From: an uncultured Erysipelotrichaceae bacterium
GTDB taxonomy: Bacteria; Bacillota_I; Bacilli_A; Erysipelotrichales; Erysipelotrichaceae
Assembly: GCA_944326095.1 (NCBI GenBank)
Contig: CALVCO010000009.1
Coordinates: 1 to 40,707 of the forward strand
Direction: 5' to 3'
DNA length: 40,707 bases
Under the pieces are notes generated by a model. It saw nothing but the letters and a program-made list of their open reading frames with translations, was not told where the DNA came from and ran no database searches. Shown here one piece after another: positions 27,725 to 37,119 of the stretch; positions within the stretch are counted from its first letter, which is position 1; every line of letters begins with the position of its first letter. The translations under genes were made by a program, and so were the position numbers.

Positions 27725-28564
27725 ATGCTATTTGCGATGGATTTAGATGGTACTTTATTATTGCCTAAATTGCCTCAATTTGATGATTATATCGAGAATA
27801 GTTTAAGAGAGATAATTGCTAAAGGGCATGAAGTTGTATTTGTTACAGGGCGTAATTATTATGAGCTTATTGAAGAAAAAAACTTGTGGGGAATGCCTTG
27901 TTATATAATTGGTTTAAATGGTGAAGTTATCTTAGATAAAAAACGTAATATAATTTATCAAAATAGTTTAGATAAAACCGTTGTTTCAGGCTTGTATGCT
28001 AACTTTTATGATTTTCCTTTTGAATATATAACTTTTGATTCAAAATTGGTTACAGTTGATGAAAATAGCTTTAAAAAGCATTTTATTAGTTCTTTTCCAG
28101 AAAACTTCTTTGAAGATGAAAAGATGAAAGAATATTTAGAAGAAATATTAAAATTAAATAGTTATAATATTTCACAAGAAGATTTATTAAATAAAGATAT
28201 TATTAAAGTTGAATTAATGAATCGTAATAAAGATCTTTGTTTTAAATTGAGCCAAGGTTTATATCAAGAATATCCTAATAAATTAACTTGTTTATATGAT
28301 GGTAATGCTTTAACTATTTGTAATGAATTTATGGATAAAGCTAAAGCTTTACAATTATTATGTTCATATTTAAATATTAATCATGAATTAGTTTATGTAT
28401 TTGGTGATGGAAGCAATGATATAACCATGTTAAAACAGTTTGAAAATTCTTATGCTGTAGAAAATGCTAGTGTTAAAGTTAAAGAGGTTGCTAAAAATAT
28501 TATTGAAGATAATTGTCATTATGGAGTTATTAAAGCCATTATGCAAATATTGGGCCAGGATTAA
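27725..28564 (+). CDS. HAD-superfamily (Cof-type) phosphatase
   Basis: This 279-aa soluble phosphatase of the Cof/YidA type has the nucleophile motif MDLDGTLL at residues 5-12, motif II FVTGRN, a C2-type cap in the middle, a Lys in motif III (~AKALQL) and motif IV GDGSNDITML. Members dephosphorylate sugar phosphates or flavin/PLP phosphates; the natural substrate is unknown. It starts 5 nt after proC with the ribosome site GAAGGA inside the proC end. Its stop overlaps the stop of the minus-strand surface-protein gene by four bases (TTAA at 28561-28564). Confidence 0.9.
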   Translation: MLFAMDLDGTLLLPKLPQFDDYIENSLREIIAKGHEVVFVTGRNYYELIEEKNLWGMPCYIIGLNGEVILDKKRNIIYQNSLDKTVVSGLYANFYDFPFEYITFDSKLVTVDENSFKKHFISSFPENFFEDEKMKEYLEEILKLNSYNISQEDLLNKDIIKVELMNRNKDLCFKLSQGLYQEYPNKLTCLYDGNALTICNEFMDKAKALQLLCSYLNINHELVYVFGDGSNDITMLKQFENSYAVENASVKVKEVAKNIIEDNCHYGVIKAIMQILGQD

Positions 28565-31500
28565 TCCTGACCCATTTTTCTTATACGCACAATTTTCTTT
28601 TTGACGATTAGTTTTTTATTAGTTTTGTAATTTTTAACTAATGAATCATTATCATTTTCAATTTTTATGACTTCACAAGCATCACCAATTATATAACCTA
28701 AAGGTGATTGGATTTCACATATTTTTAATTCAGTTCCATAATCAATATTATTTAGAGTTATAGATCCATGCTTAATGATAAATTCTTCATTTGCATCATG
28801 ATAATGAAGTTTATATTCTCCTTCATTAATGCCATAGATGATAATTTCTCCTTGTTTGTTAGTATAACCTTCTAAAACTTTTTTATCTTGCTTATCGGTT
28901 ACATAGTAGTATTCACCAATAGCTGGAATATCATGATAGGTATAAGTTTGACCATCATATACATAATAATCTTTATTAGTTCTTAAATTTTTGATAGTCA
29001 TACTTAAAATCTTTTCATTAAAGTCTTGGTTAGGATAGAAAGTTTCAATTAAGCCTTCATAGATAATTTCATCATCAATTTGACTACTAGCATTTTGTAG
29101 TTTAATGATTTTATTAACTAAATCATTTTCTACAACTTTATAACTTAAATTATTAAAGTAAATAATATCATTTGTTTTAATTTCTTGAATATTTTCAATA
29201 TCTTCATAACGTATACCACGATAATCACTCATTATTTCTAGAATTTGATAATTATCTTGTATCATTGCTTGAATATAAATATCATTATTTTTATCTTTAT
29301 TTAAAATTAATTTATTTGTTAGATTATCTTTACCGATATAGCTTAATATGGCTTGAGATTTATCCATAGAAATTAAATTAAAATTAACATTATTAAACTT
29401 AAATGAATCATTTATTTTTAGATTTTGATCTATATCATGATATTTTGGGGCTAGGATAGTATCTAGTGTATTTAAAGTAAATTTTTCATTTTCTTTTAAA
29501 TTTGTAATAGCAGATATTATATCATTATAAATAAATGGTTCAATTGCTTGATTAGTGGTAAGTTTTCGATATATACCTCCCGAAACATAGGTTCCAATAT
29601 ATTGTTCACTTATGATTTCGGGAATAATGATATTATCATTTTTTACTTCAATTACTTGTTGATTATTATCATTAGTATTAATTAATTTATAACTTAAAAT
29701 GGAATTAGCGCTAACATCTTCTGTTTCGGTAGGTGACCAAATCGTGGCATCATTAGCATATATGATATCAATTACTTGGTAAGTTTGGATATTGCCTTGT
29801 TGTTTACCATAGGCTTTAAATTGCATTCCAATATCTAAAGTTGAAACATTCTTTAAAATATCTTGATAAGTTAAAGGTACATTGACATTAATTTGCTTTT
29901 TGTCTACATGAAAGGTCATATTATCATCCAAACGTTTTACTTTGATATATTCATCATTTATTTCCATTATTTCATAAGTGTATTGATAATTTAAATCGTC
30001 TTGCCAAATATCGAATTTTTCATTTATCTTGATATTGGTAGGAATATCTTTAAATTTTATCTTATGAATAAATGTAGAAATATCATCTAAAGATGCATCG
30101 TGATTTAAATTAGTTACATCACTAATGGTAAAAATAGCGCCATTTAATAACATACTTTGATTATCATGATCTACTTTAATTACTTCTAAGTCTAATTTTC
30201 TTTTGGTATTTAAAACATTTTCGTAAGTGATATCAATATCATTATCATATTCACTATTAAAGACAAAACAGATATCTTTAGCATTTTCTACATCACTTGA
30301 AGCATAATCATAACCTAAAGGGAGTTTTGTTTCACAAGCCATATATTGCTTGCCCCATTTTAAATTATTGACATTTAGCTGACCATCAATTTGATCATGT
30401 TCAAAGACCACAAATTCTTGCATTATGCGAGTATTTGGTTGATTATAAAAATAAGTTCCAGGTTCTAAATCATCAACTTCAAACATGCCCCAATAATCAC
30501 TAAGTCCACTTTTTACAATTTCCATACCATCAGGATCTTTAGAGATAATTACAGGATAGAAACTTACAGAAGAATTATGATTAAATGGATCACTTATTCT
30601 TAATTGATTTTTACCGGTTTCACCTTTGAATAATGGTAAAGTTTCTACTTTTTTGATATTAGTTAAATTTTCATTAGTAGTAGTGAAATTAAATGCTTGC
30701 ATAATACTATCTTTTCTAATATCTGTTGAAAGTTGTTCATTTGTTAAAAGATAATAATTTTTATTATTATTTTCATCAATAAAACTTACTTTAAAATCTT
30801 TAGTATTATCATCATGCATAATTATTTTTTCAATGGTATAAGTTATACCATTTATGGTAAAAGTATCATGTAAATCACTATGAATTGGAGGAATATCTTT
30901 TTTAGTTATTGGTACAGGTATATCTAGATAATAGGTATTAGTTTTATTTGGATCTAGGATATTAGCTCTAGTTATTACCAAAGATTCCTTAATATCATCG
31001 TTTATTATTATGTCTTTGATGGTATATTTTTTATCATTATGAGTAAAAGTATCATTTATTTGTGGTTCTTTTTGTAAAATTTCTTTAACTATTTCATAGC
31101 TTAAACCATCATCTTGTTTACCATAATGTATTTTAATATCAAAGTTTTTCATACTTTCAACTTTAAAAATATGACCATCAATTAAAATATTTGAATCATC
31201 GCTAGTTAGATAGAAATGTTCATTTTCTTTTGTATATATATCATTAATATCATAAGTTTTATTAATATTAATGAAATATTTATCTAAAGTTAAATGGTCA
31301 TTATTATCTTCATAATTCGCAATTGTGTTTTTAGAAGTGTTAAGATCTTTAAGCGTTAAACTTTTTTCATTTATAGCCATTAATTCATATGTAGTATCAT
31401 TATAGATAAATTTAGTATTTAATGGAGGCAATTTATAAGCAAATATCTTTAAGATATCCTGATAAGTAATATTTGCTGGTTTATATATCCAAAAACTTTG

Positions 31501-34500
31501 ATGTTCGGGTATATTTTCTGCAGTAGAAGCTTGTAAATGATAACGATAATAATGATATTGATGACCATTTTGATCTTGTACAATAGTTACTTCTTCATCA
31601 TTGATATTATCTTTTTTTAGAATATAAGTATTAGTATCTATTTGGATGGTACTATGGGTTTTAAACATATCGAGAATTTGTTGATAGGTAAATGGAGCAT
31701 CATCTTCTAAAGCAAAGCCAAATACATATTCAAAATCATCACTTTTGCTTAATAAGGTATATTTTTTATTGTTGATGGTTATATCATCACCTTTAATTAA
31801 TTCTCGTTGATATGGAAGGGTAAATTTATCATTTATTTTAAAAGGCATTTGATTATTGATTTCTAATTGTTTAACTTTTTCATAGTTGATAATATCATAA
31901 CTACTTATAGCTTGTGGACTTAAGAAAAACATTTTTTCATTTTCATCTTTGATAACGATATTAGAAAGTTCAGGATAGTTAGAACATACTATATAAGTGT
32001 GTTCATTAATAGTGAAAGTATCGTTTACTTTTAAATCTTGGATATTAGGAATATCATCATAAGTAAAATCTAAAGCGTATTGTAAATTTTGATTGGCTTT
32101 AAGATGAAAAACTATATCAGGATGAGTTAAGTGCTCATTGAAGGAAGAAGTGTTCCATTTTACGATATATTCTTTAGAATCAAAATTAGAAATAGTAAAG
32201 GTTTTTGTGATTTGCTCTTTATATTGATAGGTGGTAGTTGGTAAATCTTTATATAGTACTAAATTGATATTTTTATCATTTATCTTAACTTGTATTTTGA
32301 TATATGTAGGGTTTTGCGGATCTAATGGTTCAATAATGGTATATTCAATATCATTGATAGTTATCATCTCATTTGCGCTAACTTGTTCTAAGGAAGTTCC
32401 TTGATTGATAGCGGCTTGATATAAATCGTTAAATTGGGCATATTCATAAGGTTGTTCCATTATTTTTTCATAACTATATGTTCTAGTAGTACCTATTGGA
32501 CAAGCACTTATATCATATGGATCATTACAATAAATATTTTTATCATCATTTAAAATATTAGTTAAATGGGCATAATCAATAATACTATTATCATTAGTTT
32601 TGACATAATTATTTTCATCATTTAAATAATAATTACCTTCTTTGGTTATTTTGTAATTATTATTTTGGTCATCCTTAACATAATATACAGGTTCAATAAT
32701 ATCTAAGATAGTAAATGATTCATTTGCACTAATAGTCTTAGGAATATCTTCTATAGAAATAATTGGGGGAACATCGATGGTTAATGATGTTTCTTGAATT
32801 CTTTGGACTTCTAAGCCGATAATTGAATCATTTTCATATATTTTATTAGTTAATTGATAGTTTATTCCATTAATATTTATTATGGTATCAATGGGAATAT
32901 TTTCTAATGTATATTCATTATTGTCTTGTAACCATTGTTCTATATCTTTTAGCTTTAATTCTTTTGAATCTTCATTGATTAATAGCTTATAGTTTTCATA
33001 AGCTTTTAAATGCATTTTATGTGGATTATAACTAATTACTTCATAATTTATATTATCGATACTAAATTTAGTTTCCTGATGATTTTTAATATTTTCTGGT
33101 AATTGATTATAAGTTAATGAAACATTAGGAATATGATATAAAGTAGCTGGATATACAATATAGCTATCATCATCTATTTTTTCTTTGATGGTATATGCTT
33201 TATTTTCATATTCTAAATGATCTTGAATGATGATTGCTTCGACATTATCTAAAGTTAGTGTAGTACTTAAATCGGTATATTTGATAATAGCTCCATCTTT
33301 AGTATATTGGATTAATTGATATTCTTTAGTATTTTCATTATTTGTTATACTAAATTTATTAAATTCCTTTAAAACTTTAGGTATTTGATCATAGGTAATA
33401 GGTTCAATAGAATTAAAGTCATCATATTTTATTGAAGATAGTAAATAACCATCATTTTCTATTTTTTGAATGGTATATCGATAACCATTTAGGAAAAAGC
33501 TTTGGCCTACTTGTGGATCGTTTAAATTGTTTATTAATTGTTGATAACTTATTTTGGTTGATGGTTCTAAATAATCGGTAGTGATATTTCCTAAAGGAGT
33601 AGGATCTTTTGTTAAATCAAAATCATTTATTTGATATATTTCAAAATTAGCGCCATTTAATTTTAAATAAATATTGTCACTATCTTGTTTAACAATGGAT
33701 AAATCGATATCACGTAACATATTTACAAAATCTTGATGGGTAGTTTCATTTTGATCATTAGTTTTTACTAAGAATGGTCTTTCATCAGTAAGATAAGGAT
33801 TGGTTACTTTCCATTCCTTTATCCACCATGATTTATGGCGTGGTAATAAATCACTAATATGGGCAAGACCATCAGCGCCTATGGTAAATGTGCGAATATT
33901 AGTTCCATCAAGAGTCATAATAGGATAATAAGTTTTATTGCCATTAACATAATTAAAGCTACCATATAAATCAGGATCTATTCCTACATTAAAATTATAT
34001 AAGTCTTGCCAATTTTCATCTTTACCACCATCATAACGATATTGATAAGTAGGATCATCATACCAACCAATTACAAATTGGGTTCCTTCACTAAAATTTT
34101 GACTTTTAAAATATTCATCTAGTTTTTCTATTTCAATATCAGCAGTTTTTAATTTAAATGCTAAAGTATAAGAAGGGGTAGGATTTTCAAAGCTAATGCC
34201 CATTAATTTTTGATTTGAGCCACTAGTATATAACAAGATATTATTTAACCATGATTGATAATCTTGATCCTTACGTTTAAAGGTTAAAGTTTTACCATTA
34301 GCACTATCATAACCTTCATAATATAAATCGTCGATATCTATTTTTAATAAATTACCTTCTTGTTTGATATTAATACCTGAATGGCTTTCTTGGGGAAAGG
34401 GTTCAAACCAATCTAATACGGGGCTTCCTTTATGGAACAGATTTGTAGAACCATCATCAGTTAGAATTAAAGTTTCATCCCAATCTAATTCATAAGTGAT

Positions 34501-35370
34501 AGTGTCATGCCATTGGCTAGCAAAACTTGGTGCAGTATCATAATTTTCTACAAGATTCATGATTTCATTCATCATGTTATTAACATCCACATTACCACTT
34601 ACTGCTGGACATTGTTGATCAGCAGGACTACACCACATTAAACTAGTAATTATTTCTTGATATTCTTGGGGACATATGGTTTGCCATATTAATAATTGAG
34701 TGGCTAAATAACTTTCGTCACTATTACCAATTAAGGGATGTCCATAACCATAGTGAATTATTCTTCCTACTTTATTCAATATTTCTGGATTTAAATCACT
34801 TGGTTGAATGGTATATTGAGGTCCATTACCTTCATTGTCCAGAATTACCATAACATATGGTTCTATACAATAACCTACTTTTCCATTAATCATGAATTTT
34901 GATATATATTCATAACCACCTTGTTTAATATTTTCATATCGGGCAATGCGCTTTTCACGCTTTAAATTAAGACTATCATTACTTAATAAAGAGATAGGTG
35001 ATAAAGCATTTTGATAATCAATAATCGTATATTTCATATCATCATATTCATAAGTTCCAGGAAGTAATTCTTCATCATTATAATCATCGATAATAATCGC
35101 TCCTGAAGATATTTCAGGAATTACTTCTTCCTTATTTTCTATTGGAGCTGAAGTAGTGATAGGTTCATCAGTAGTTACTGGTACTATGGTTTCTAGAGGA
35201 ATTTGTGTTGGTGAAGTCGTTTCTTCAATAACTATTTCTTCACTAGGAACAATCGTTTCTTCTATAATCGGTTCATTAGTTGTTTCAATAGGTGCTTCAG
35301 TTATTTCATTCGCACTAATAATTTGAATATTTAAAAGTAATATTATTAAATATAAAATAAATTTTTTCAT
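28561..35370 (-). CDS. giant thioester-domain surface protein with split SpaA-like domains and repeat arrays
   Basis: This 2269-aa secreted protein probably acts as a surface adhesin. A signal peptide (1-20) is followed by a Pro/Glu/Thr-rich stalk (21-87). A thioester (TQXA) domain follows: Cys168 in GYCIEP and Gln225 in ATQLLIW are placed to form the internal bond used for covalent host binding. A SpaA/Cna-B-like domain begins at ~556 (SIVKQD, LNGANFEI) but resumes only at ~1573-1720 (SGLSDYWGMF, LEPGTY, CETKLPLGY). A second begins at ~1726 (EVIKVD, LLNGAIFTI) and resumes at ~2150-2240 (LEGYTNKQGE, CEIQSPLGY). The gaps hold degenerate repeats. There is no LPXTG-like motif or C-terminal helix: it ends in a basic tail. 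It is the last gene of a three-gene operon, 3 nt after the sortase. Confidence 0.85.
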   Translation of the reverse strand: MKKFILYLIILLLNIQIISANEITEAPIETTNEPIIEETIVPSEEIVIEETTSPTQIPLETIVPVTTDEPITTSAPIENKEEVIPEISSGAIIIDDYNDEELLPGTYEYDDMKYTIIDYQNALSPISLLSNDSLNLKREKRIARYENIKQGGYEYISKFMINGKVGYCIEPYVMVILDNEGNGPQYTIQPSDLNPEILNKVGRIIHYGYGHPLIGNSDESYLATQLLIWQTICPQEYQEIITSLMWCSPADQQCPAVSGNVDVNNMMNEIMNLVENYDTAPSFASQWHDTITYELDWDETLILTDDGSTNLFHKGSPVLDWFEPFPQESHSGINIKQEGNLLKIDIDDLYYEGYDSANGKTLTFKRKDQDYQSWLNNILLYTSGSNQKLMGISFENPTPSYTLAFKLKTADIEIEKLDEYFKSQNFSEGTQFVIGWYDDPTYQYRYDGGKDENWQDLYNFNVGIDPDLYGSFNYVNGNKTYYPIMTLDGTNIRTFTIGADGLAHISDLLPRHKSWWIKEWKVTNPYLTDERPFLVKTNDQNETTHQDFVNMLRDIDLSIVKQDSDNIYLKLNGANFEIYQINDFDLTKDPTPLGNITTDYLEPSTKISYQQLINNLNDPQVGQSFFLNGYRYTIQKIENDGYLLSSIKYDDFNSIEPITYDQIPKVLKEFNKFSITNNENTKEYQLIQYTKDGAIIKYTDLSTTLTLDNVEAIIIQDHLEYENKAYTIKEKIDDDSYIVYPATLYHIPNVSLTYNQLPENIKNHQETKFSIDNINYEVISYNPHKMHLKAYENYKLLINEDSKELKLKDIEQWLQDNNEYTLENIPIDTIININGINYQLTNKIYENDSIIGLEVQRIQETSLTIDVPPIISIEDIPKTISANESFTILDIIEPVYYVKDDQNNNYKITKEGNYYLNDENNYVKTNDNSIIDYAHLTNILNDDKNIYCNDPYDISACPIGTTRTYSYEKIMEQPYEYAQFNDLYQAAINQGTSLEQVSANEMITINDIEYTIIEPLDPQNPTYIKIQVKINDKNINLVLYKDLPTTTYQYKEQITKTFTISNFDSKEYIVKWNTSSFNEHLTHPDIVFHLKANQNLQYALDFTYDDIPNIQDLKVNDTFTINEHTYIVCSNYPELSNIVIKDENEKMFFLSPQAISSYDIINYEKVKQLEINNQMPFKINDKFTLPYQRELIKGDDITINNKKYTLLSKSDDFEYVFGFALEDDAPFTYQQILDMFKTHSTIQIDTNTYILKKDNINDEEVTIVQDQNGHQYHYYRYHLQASTAENIPEHQSFWIYKPANITYQDILKIFAYKLPPLNTKFIYNDTTYELMAINEKSLTLKDLNTSKNTIANYEDNNDHLTLDKYFININKTYDINDIYTKENEHFYLTSDDSNILIDGHIFKVESMKNFDIKIHYGKQDDGLSYEIVKEILQKEPQINDTFTHNDKKYTIKDIIINDDIKESLVITRANILDPNKTNTYYLDIPVPITKKDIPPIHSDLHDTFTINGITYTIEKIIMHDDNTKDFKVSFIDENNNKNYYLLTNEQLSTDIRKDSIMQAFNFTTTNENLTNIKKVETLPLFKGETGKNQLRISDPFNHNSSVSFYPVIISKDPDGMEIVKSGLSDYWGMFEVDDLEPGTYFYNQPNTRIMQEFVVFEHDQIDGQLNVNNLKWGKQYMACETKLPLGYDYASSDVENAKDICFVFNSEYDNDIDITYENVLNTKRKLDLEVIKVDHDNQSMLLNGAIFTISDVTNLNHDASLDDISTFIHKIKFKDIPTNIKINEKFDIWQDDLNYQYTYEIMEINDEYIKVKRLDDNMTFHVDKKQINVNVPLTYQDILKNVSTLDIGMQFKAYGKQQGNIQTYQVIDIIYANDATIWSPTETEDVSANSILSYKLINTNDNNQQVIEVKNDNIIIPEIISEQYIGTYVSGGIYRKLTTNQAIEPFIYNDIISAITNLKENEKFTLNTLDTILAPKYHDIDQNLKINDSFKFNNVNFNLISMDKSQAILSYIGKDNLTNKLILNKDKNNDIYIQAMIQDNYQILEIMSDYRGIRYEDIENIQEIKTNDIIYFNNLSYKVVENDLVNKIIKLQNASSQIDDEIIYEGLIETFYPNQDFNEKILSMTIKNLRTNKDYYVYDGQTYTYHDIPAIGEYYYVTDKQDKKVLEGYTNKQGEIIIYGINEGEYKLHYHDANEEFIIKHGSITLNNIDYGTELKICEIQSPLGYIIGDACEVIKIENDNDSLVKNYKTNKKLIVKKKIVRIRKMGQD
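29056..30078 (-). repeat. protein repeat array 2 (inside second SpaA-like domain)
   Basis: Residues ~1765-2105 hold at least four degenerate repeats that begin IKFKDIP, LTYQDIL, FIYNDII and IRYEDIE and carry a following F-x-(I/L/F)-N and Y-x-(I/V/L) pair. They interrupt a SpaA-like domain whose two ends lie at ~1726-1752 and ~2150-2240. Confidence 0.6.
30721..33564 (-). repeat. protein repeat array 1 (inside first SpaA-like domain)
   Basis: Residues ~603-1550 hold at least nine degenerate units of about 50-70 aa. Unit starts include ISYQQLI (607), ITYDQIP (658), LTYNQLP (752), ISIEDIP (871), FTYDDIP (1102), FTYQQIL (1227), ITYQDIL (1301), LSYEIVK (1423) and ITKKDIP (1488). Each is typically followed by a (N)DTFTIN-like turn and Y-T-I. 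At the DNA level the copies are diverged, so this is an old repeat. Confidence 0.65.
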
Positions 35371-35373
35371 AAT

Positions 35374-36084
35374 TTAAAAAATCCTTTCATAGGCTTGTAA
35401 AACAAAGCGAGCATTATTTTTTTGCATATTGCAGGTAACTAAGGTAATTAATTGTTGGTTGTGATAATAAAAACCATCAATATGATTTATGGCATAATTT
35501 AAAGTATTATCAAACATGGTTTTAACTTGTTCATAATTTGCATAATAATTATTATGCCAATCTAAATAAGTATCAGGATTATCTAAGTCATATTCACAAA
35601 AACTAATTATTTGATAAATATGTTCACCATCTTCGTCAATTAATTTAAATTCTTGATGTTTATCAAAATATGCTTTATCGGCATAATTTTTTAAAAAAGT
35701 AAAGTTCCAATCTTTAGTCTTAGAAGAATGACCATTAATAATATAATTATTGGAAGTTTCTAAAGGTGATAGTTGTTTTTCCATAAAACAAGATCCCATC
35801 GTATCATAATTGCCCCAAGGATCATGAAGCATATAATAATCACCATTATCGGTATATATGATAGGTATTGAAGTTATCTTGTCATCAATGGTAAATTCTA
35901 ATAAGGCAAATATTTCTGGATTAATCTTTTGCCAATCTTTTAAAGTTTTTAAAGTATCTTCTTTTTGATGAATATAAATTTGTTTGGTATCTTTATCATC
36001 TTGTCGATAAATTAGACTAGTTCCTAATGTGAGAATAGAAAGGGCCAAGTATACCTTTACCCTTTTTTTAAGCTTTCTACTCAT
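35374..36084 (-). CDS. srtB: class B sortase
   Basis: This membrane-anchored transpeptidase should cut a sorting motif and link surface proteins to the wall or to each other. It has 236 aa, with an N-terminal basic stretch and helix (~9-25) as a type II anchor. The catalytic residues are His119 (IINGHSS), Cys218 (ITLVTCNM) and Arg226 (NARFVL). The long helix before the Cys strand (~184-200) and the overall length favour class B over classes A and C. It overlaps the upstream membrane protein gene by 8 nt and precedes the giant surface protein by 3 nt. Its ribosome site GAAGGAGT lies within the upstream gene. The best candidate substrate is the giant protein, although that lacks a visible sorting motif. 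Confidence 0.9.
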   Translation of the reverse strand: MSRKLKKRVKVYLALSILTLGTSLIYRQDDKDTKQIYIHQKEDTLKTLKDWQKINPEIFALLEFTIDDKITSIPIIYTDNGDYYMLHDPWGNYDTMGSCFMEKQLSPLETSNNYIINGHSSKTKDWNFTFLKNYADKAYFDKHQEFKLIDEDGEHIYQIISFCEYDLDNPDTYLDWHNNYYANYEQVKTMFDNTLNYAINHIDGFYYHNQQLITLVTCNMQKNNARFVLQAYERIF

Positions 36085-37021
36085 AACTTACTAATACTCC
36101 TTCATCATAGGTTATTTCTTCTTCATAATATTCTTCATATATTTCTTCACTATATGTTGGACTTATTTCTTCTGGCAAAATTATTTGCGCTTGTTCAAAA
36201 GATATAGGCTTATCATTATTAATAGTTTGAATAGGAATCGGTTCATCTTCTTTAATTATCTTTAAAGAAGCATAAGTAATATTGCCTGAAGAATCACTTA
36301 CTTGATAGTTATAATAGGCAATATCATCATTAAAATGAAGATCATTAGAACATATGACCTTATCTTTTAAATCTTTGTCTACATTGTCTATTACTTCATC
36401 AATATAAAAATGACAACTTTGTAAATTATCATCATATGTAATTTCATCATATAAAAGTTTTATAGAAGGATTTTGATTATCAATAATATTAACCATCAAA
36501 GTTTGTTCAATCTGTTTAAAATTATTTTTTGCAATATAAGTTAAAGGATAACTACCAGGACGATCATATTCTAATGTAGGTAAAATAACTTTAGCATTTA
36601 CAACCTCTGATATATAATCATTAGGATTAAAATTATTACCATATATTAAATCAATACTATTAGTAGTTAAGCTAAAATCAATAGTTAATAAGCTCTTTAA
36701 AAACTGAATACTAAAAATAAATATAACTAATATTAAAATAGTTATACTAATAATTATTTCCTTCTTATATTTTTTAATAGTTAAATCATTTTCTAATATA
36801 TCAATACCAAAAATATCATAGGCTTCATTAAAGCTTAAAGATAAAGTTTGTTCTTTAGAATTTTTAAGTATTACTTTATCATTAATATCTAATATTTTTA
36901 CTTTTTCAGAAATATCAATGGAAAATTGTTTTAGTAAATTCTTTAATTTTTCACAGCCATAAATGTGGGTAATTTGAATTTGTTGGCCAACAAGACATTT
37001 GGCTAAAGCTTTAGATTTCAA
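36077..37021 (-). CDS. FeoA-like / transmembrane / Ig-like membrane protein
   Basis: This 314-aa single-pass protein is the first gene of the sortase operon. Residues ~11-78 look like a FeoA-type SH3-like domain: GQQIQITHIYG, a helix, ISEKVKILDIND, then LSLSFNEAYDIFGI. A helix at ~89-108 follows. Outside the cell are two Ig-like (DUF5011-like) segments (~115-175 with RPGSYPLTYIAKN, ~178-250 with DSSGNITYASLKI) that include two Cys, then an acidic, Tyr-rich tail (SEEIYEEYYEEEITYDE). A frame opens at ATG 37087, but the TTG at 37021 has AAGGAAG at 8 nt and begins next to the FeoA-like domain, so I use it. Role unknown; a sensor or scaffold for the surface protein is possible. Confidence 0.65.
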   Translation of the reverse strand: MKSKALAKCLVGQQIQITHIYGCEKLKNLLKQFSIDISEKVKILDINDKVILKNSKEQTLSLSFNEAYDIFGIDILENDLTIKKYKKEIIISITILILVIFIFSIQFLKSLLTIDFSLTTNSIDLIYGNNFNPNDYISEVVNAKVILPTLEYDRPGSYPLTYIAKNNFKQIEQTLMVNIIDNQNPSIKLLYDEITYDDNLQSCHFYIDEVIDNVDKDLKDKVICSNDLHFNDDIAYYNYQVSDSSGNITYASLKIIKEDEPIPIQTINNDKPISFEQAQIILPEEISPTYSEEIYEEYYEEEITYDEGVLVSYE

Positions 37022-37119
37022 AACTATCACTTCCTTTATAGCTATATATGAACTTATTTTGATTATTTTCCTAAAAAAAATATTCATTTTGGTTTAAAAT
37101 AGATTAAAAGGAAGATAAT

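Follow-up and report, generated by a model that had tools for sequence, protein, structure and literature searches.

Two SpaA/CnaB domains split by long arrays of predicted small barrels in a giant thioester-domain protein of an Erysipelotrichaceae bacterium

Gene context of a 2269-residue thioester protein

The window analyzed here is a 40,707-nucleotide stretch of DNA (contig CALVCO010000009.1, positions 1 to 40,707; assembly GCA_944326095.1) from the 1.6-Mb genome of an uncultured Erysipelotrichaceae bacterium. An open reading frame on its minus strand (28561-35370) encodes a protein of 2269 amino acids, the features of which are collected in Table 1. A Pfam search identified an N-terminal thioester domain (PF08341; E 1.9e-7, above the cut-off) that contains both YCIEP and TQLLIW, the Cys/TQxxhW motif being part of the published definition of thioester domains (PMC6194298). 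Its PDB match was SaTIE-TED (E 6.8e-6). The same search recovered SpaA in three stretches (E 1.6e-13), and the long middle parts of the protein gave no Pfam match above cut-off. We consider it moderately likely that the protein is a secreted, cell-wall thioester adhesin with a SpaA/CnaB stalk, a grade that applies jointly to the whole explanation developed below.

Table 1. Features of the giant protein and of the two genes upstream of it (window coordinates; residues refer to the 2269-aa protein)
Feature	Residues	Window position	Strand	Evidence
Sec-type signal peptide	1-20	35311..35370	-	sequence MKKFILYLIILLLNIQIISA, by eye
Thioester domain	141-395	34186..34950	-	Cys168 in YCIEP, TQLLIW motif, candidate Gln387
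First SpaA/CnaB stalk domain, uninterrupted	396-552	33715..34185	-	Pfam SpaA, best stretch 484-548
Domain 1, first half (Lys561)	553-583	33622..33714	-	start-module HMM, 49 bits
Array 1, 996-residue insert in B-C loop of domain 1	584-1579	30634..33621	-	about 12-15 KOW/SH3-like units (predicted) plus non-unit islands
Domain 1, second half	1580-1722	30205..30633	-	endA HMM, 152 bits; Pfam SpaA profile positions 41-70
Domain 2, first half (Lys1732)	1723-1754	30109..30204	-	start-module HMM, 49 bits
Array 2a, B-C loop of domain 2, 2 units	1755-1921	29608..30108	-	unit HMM and comparison with relatives
Host strand C of domain 2, IGTYVSGGIYRKLTTN	1922-1937	29560..29607	-	motif common to compact and array-bearing relatives
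Array 2b, loop between strand C and nested module of domain 2, 3 units	1938-2151	28918..29559	-	unit HMM
Domain 2, second half	2152-2250	28621..28917	-	endB HMM, 104 bits; VIA-align CnaB/transthyretin, Z about 5
C-terminal tail, IRKMG motif, no membrane anchor	2251-2269	28564..28620	-	conserved in genus; family pattern
Class B-like sortase, likely adhesin partner		35374..36084	-	Pfam Sortase, E 5.2e-7
336-aa membrane protein, Ig-like outer part		36077..37087	-	sequence; PF16403 below cut-off

Immediately upstream of the adhesin gene, on the same strand, are the genes for a sortase and a 336-aa membrane protein. The sortase matched the Pfam Sortase family and scored 55.3 bits against TIGR03064 (class B), below the cut-off of 153.75 bits, and it is therefore designated class B-like only. 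The 336-aa protein, whose gene precedes that of the sortase, has one membrane helix and an inner part that appears FeoA-like by eye; a counterpart occurs upstream in the genus relatives, where the ending TYDEGVLVSYE is identical.

The adhesin terminates in IVRIRKMGQD, a genus-conserved sequence without a membrane anchor. A frameshifted, lost LPXTG anchor was sought 3' of the stop codon in every frame, and none was found. In a comparison that drew on the window and relatives L034-L053 and L119-L158, thioester proteins of the family encoded beside a sortase of the same type with a high score (at least 137 bits) lacked the anchor in 15 of 15 cases, versus 5 of 40 others (Fisher p 1.3e-9), counts that are not independent by descent. 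The anchorless ends resemble [IV][PR]x[MT]G followed by a short tail (VPNTGV, VPKMGV, IPVMGE and IRKMGQD). A tested precedent exists in AbpA of oral streptococci, which is anchored by SrtB through LPKTSAVK (PMC4974636); it likewise has a sortase-type motif, a very short tail, no hydrophobic anchor and a gene beside that for sortase B. By analogy, the neighboring class B-like sortase probably attaches the adhesin via its short anchorless C-terminal motif, although the window protein differs from AbpA in its [IV][PR]x[MT]G-like motif and in being a giant thioester protein rather than an amylase binder. At four loci (L039, L041, L042 and L044), the end of the adhesin gene overlaps the open frame of a downstream sortase by about 30 bases, which suggests translational coupling.

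The same protein was found in all five other genomes of the genus (42-82% identity), two of the copies being on contig fragments. The adhesin gene of one genus relative (L003/L054) has a single in-frame TAA near residue 328, and the remainder of its frame is open.

Two SpaA domains with distant halves

The original prediction had described two SpaA/CnaB-like domains whose start and end signatures are far apart. Using separate profiles for the first and second half of the SpaA domain, we measured 996 and 397 residues between the halves, and the limits agreed with those predicted: domain 1 starts at 553-583, has its end signature at 1580-1691 and extends to about 1722; domain 2 starts at 1724-1754, has its end signature at 2152-2231 and extends to about 2250. 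The second half of domain 1 contains strand C, a nested prealbumin-like module, Glu1680 and Asn1718, and that of domain 2 contains a nested prealbumin-like module, Glu2219 and Asn2247. As this nested module is also present in compact relatives, it stands outside the history of the arrays.

Family relatives provided copies of both domains with gaps of very different length. Among domain-1-type copies, the gap is 5 and 19 aa in two compact copies, both from L037, and longer in three others (110 aa in L037, 82 in L040 and 98 in L038). It reaches 735 aa in L035, 888 in L036, 908 in L034, 996 in the window and 1006-1008 in the genus of the window. Domain-2-type copies are compact at seven loci (17 aa, 20 at four loci, 24 and 25), with one more at 60 aa, and in the array carriers their gaps measure 116 (L036), 320-335 and 397-399 aa. 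As read from these sequences, the series is one of empty sites, filled sites and one intermediate.

When the insert and the nested module were removed and the outer halves joined, the Pfam SpaA profile (PF17802, cut-off 23.1 bits) aligned continuously and above cut-off to both constructs, over positions 3-70 in domain 1 (29.9 bits) and 3-84 of 91 in domain 2 (34.5 bits). Alone, the end halves covered profile positions 40-85 only and remained below cut-off, at 17.9 bits (domain 1) and 21.9 bits (domain 2), and the first halves gave no score against Pfam SpaA. A swapped construct (start of domain 1, end of domain 2) scored 32.9 bits; thus the joining test demonstrates that the two ends are complementary and both needed, not which start pairs with which end, and the pairing is taken instead from the order in compact relatives.

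The residues for an intramolecular isopeptide bond are likewise divided between the distant ends. The predicted set is Lys561/Glu1680/Asn1718 in domain 1, with Lys and Asn 1157 residues apart, and Lys1732/Glu2219/Asn2247 in domain 2, with 515 residues between Lys and Asn. In both split domains the Lys is on the first strand, the Glu precedes PxGY and the Asn is on the last strand. The Lys is present in every listed domain copy, and the Glu and Asn, read from the same lists, have the same positions in relatives. By analogy to the CnaB family (PMC12617251), a Lys-Asn bond would form in each split domain. Together, the empty sites, the continuous joined match and the divided Lys/Glu/Asn set support the proposal, made at sequence level, that the distant halves belong to one SpaA domain.

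The gap of about 400 residues in domain 2 had been regarded as a single array. The split itself stands, but the gap is divided mid-way by GTYVSGGIY, a strand of the host domain (about 1922-1937) that follows the pattern G-x-[FYL]-x-[ST]-G-x-[IL]. In the most compact relatives, 3-7 aa separate this strand from the first half and 5-8 aa from the nested module; in domain 2 of the window, 171 aa occupy the first loop and 217 aa the second. In domain 2 of L036 the first loop is short, at 25 aa, and the second, of 82 aa, accommodates a single unit. As the conserved host strand separates two inserts, insertion of repeats has affected no fewer than three loops across the two domains. The further proposal that the arrays lie at equivalent places accordingly applies to array 1 and the first half of array 2, which share the same host loop, but not to array 2 as a whole, which consists of two inserts in two loops. 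The loop that array 1 occupies in the window protein is filled in L037 (residues 815-924) and L038 (residues 1389-1486) by another kind of insert, about 100 aa long and possibly Ig-like. Persistence of an original Ig-like (Big_2) domain within array 1 was considered and rejected, the one match being sub-threshold (E 0.081, in L038) and poorly aligned.

AlphaFold modeling of residues 1715-2269 from a four-sequence alignment gave a mean pLDDT of 50 with the host domain unfolded, and a Foldseek search with this whole model returned no useful match for the host domain; the end half of domain 2 alone is a CnaB/transthyretin-like part. Closure of the host domains rests on sequence and comparison and not on the model. 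The absence of closure in the model can be counted in favor of a rival explanation in which the inserts are spacers, serial barrels that lengthen or stiffen a stalk in which the SpaA halves do not close into one domain. The units themselves, for which we found neither a Pfam family nor a recognizable binding motif, are compatible with such a role, and the evidence for side arms presented below would also fit a plain length-extending spacer. However, closure is predicted by the empty-site relatives, by the complementarity of the SpaA halves and by the division of Lys, Glu and Asn between the two ends, and the retention of host strand C inside the domain 2 insert is sensible only if the host folds around it. 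We therefore regard the spacer explanation as rather improbable, and favor host domains that close.

Sequence, predicted fold and history of the repeat units

Where at least 13 degenerate units had been predicted, an HMM refined on the genus found 17 at a conditional E-value below 0.01, 12 in array 1 and 5 in array 2, with about three weaker ones besides. Their core reads [IL]TYxxIP...K-x-x-D-x-F-x-I-N-x-x-x-Y-x-[VI]. The relatedness of the two arrays was confirmed by cross-training: a model built from array 1 only scored 10.9 bits in array 2 and gave no noteworthy match elsewhere in the protein, and a model built from array 2 only scored 13.6 bits in array 1. Neither score was reached in any of 500 shuffles. 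These results bear on the possibility that the halves are separate truncated domains and that the unit similarity arose by chance in low-complexity sequence rich in Lys, Asn and Asp. The protein is indeed compositionally biased, but shuffles of the same composition never attained the cross-trained scores, and orthologs at 42-82% identity keep the architecture; the explanation as a whole is contradicted by the cross-training, the empty-site gaps and the joined SpaA match. It is scarcely credible.

Recognizable units are absent from roughly one-fifth of array 1 (about 910-998, 1045-1100 and 1355-1420). The first of these islands (residues 910-998; window 32377-32643) carries a Cys pair, CNDPYDISACPIGTTR, for which the sequence in the other genus is CLDPYDPKGCPVGLTR. 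No tandem repeats were detected at the DNA level, which indicates that the units are old and diverged.

The units had been listed as unrecognized, a description that does not hold for their fold. Prediction of a single unit from 45 unit rows gave a five-stranded model (pLDDT 85.4, pTM 0.74), consistent with the expectation that the units share one small beta-rich fold. In the 555-residue model of 1715-2269, two units are well folded (pLDDT about 70-91, with 85-91 for the unit at 1970-2040) and the rest of the model is not. The best structure matches of the unit were EF-P domain I, Tudor, Spt5 KOW, and ribosomal and MscS-type SH3-like barrels, with a best Z of 4.7, and Foldseek with the unit model gave no match below E 0.6. 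Weak matches are expected for 45 residues, and SH3-like accordingly denotes a class rather than a family. On the predicted model, the units read as KOW/SH3-like small barrels.

EF-P also recurred in sequence searches. Off-target matches of the unit HMM in family genomes fell mostly on the N-termini of EF-P (about 12 of 21 loci, as judged from the search hits), with which the units have in common the short pattern 'DLKPGxxFxxxGxxYxV'. An hhalign comparison of the unit with EF-P aligned 25 columns at a probability of 51%; the controls (reversed EF-P, sortase and thioester) reached about 1% or less. None of the 45 units matched PF08207 (EFP_N) at E <= 1, and one relative, L034, matched EFP_N at E 0.0024, below the Pfam cut-off. 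As the pattern is short and the Pfam family is not matched, descent of the units from EF-P is not claimed. The likeness to EF-P domain I, KOW and Tudor barrels is that of a small five-strand barrel, extends over about 25-45 residues and is no proof of descent; the window units differ in being extracellular and in forming a long diverged series.

Strong unit matches in giant proteins were obtained in 3 of 60 sampled genera; when sampling was extended to 295 genomes of the order, the only additions were further members of one of those three. The arrays of the window genus align collinearly with those of a second genus (681 columns, E 4.5e-42; array 2, 216 columns), and thus predate the split of these genera. 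In a tree of thioester domains, the eight proteins of these two genera form one clade (100/100) and L036 falls elsewhere, its array being weakly alignable to the others; with L036 apart from the other array carriers, the tree does not establish a single origin.

The idea that a repeat family grows inside a host domain is borne out across genera, where copies with 0, 1 and several units occur, but not within the genus, where array 1 has gained or lost 0-3 of 996 positions. With the unit number fixed within the genus, growth must date far back, and the arrays at present change through substitutions. Array 1 identity within the genus is 49-57%, versus 79-84% for the thioester domain, which makes the arrays the least conserved folded part of the protein. 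Rapid substitution at constant length is in keeping with a surface that is exposed or involved in binding. The low conservation would also suit a variable or decoy surface, on closed host domains, that shields the stalk from antibodies or proteases and binds no ligand. Against such a shield are the near absence of indels within the genus and the lack of DNA-level repeats that would permit rapid reshuffling, and we judge it unlikely.

Proposed architecture and comparison with known adhesins

We propose that the N-terminal thioester domain is a candidate covalent binder of the target and that the SpaA/CnaB domains would build a stalk. Strings of KOW/SH3-like barrels would fill three surface loops of two stalk domains, the SpaA fold being kept from the distant ends, and a predicted Lys-Asn isopeptide bond with a catalytic Glu would staple the first and last strand of each split domain. 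Pulling force on the stalk would then pass through the staple and bypass the arrays, leaving them as tension-free side arms, and the class B-like sortase would attach the adhesin by its anchorless C-terminal motif. The side arms would most likely add multivalent contacts with glycans or proteins, a role that we rank ahead of those of spacer or shield. As a whole, a sortase-attached thioester adhesin with stapled split domains and tension-free barrel side arms is the best explanation, and one that we hold to be somewhat better than even.

Interruption of a CnaB/SpaA domain between its isopeptide-forming residues is known from the streptococcal pilus adhesin Cpa/Spy0125, and in SpaA (2XID) the residues Lys297/Glu347/Asp595 are split by an insert (PMC12617251, PMC6194298). 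In Cpa/Spy0125, the insert is one adhesive (thioester) domain of a few hundred residues, whereas the window protein carries small barrels in strings, which fill one loop with about 1000 residues and occur in three loops of two successive domains; its thioester domain sits outside the split domains. The TIE proteins (BaTIE, SaTIE and EfmTIE86), in the parts of their published descriptions available to us, resemble the window protein in having CnaB stalk domains behind an N-terminal thioester domain; those parts report no inserted arrays and describe sortase-anchored surface proteins, unlike the window protein with its lack of a membrane-anchored sorting signal.

Domain insertion into CnaB loops is thus already known, the examples consulted being single isopeptide or adhesive domains, and no counterpart to the scale, repeat type and double loop use seen here was found in the literature consulted. 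Isopeptide-stapled CnaB sockets that project tension-free, KOW/SH3-like multivalent arms, combined with an anchorless sortase signal, may perhaps constitute a previously undescribed architecture, a suggestion we offer tentatively. The window adhesin represents a known design, the insertion of domains into adhesin stalks, on an unusually large scale. Its host domain can be traced from an uninterrupted form, through one with a single unit, to one in which defined loops carry about 1000 residues of repeats, a series through which the cargo capacity of a covalently closed domain could be tested directly. Provided that the staple holds, no load would fall on the arms, and a stalk could in this way gain many binding sites without being weakened.
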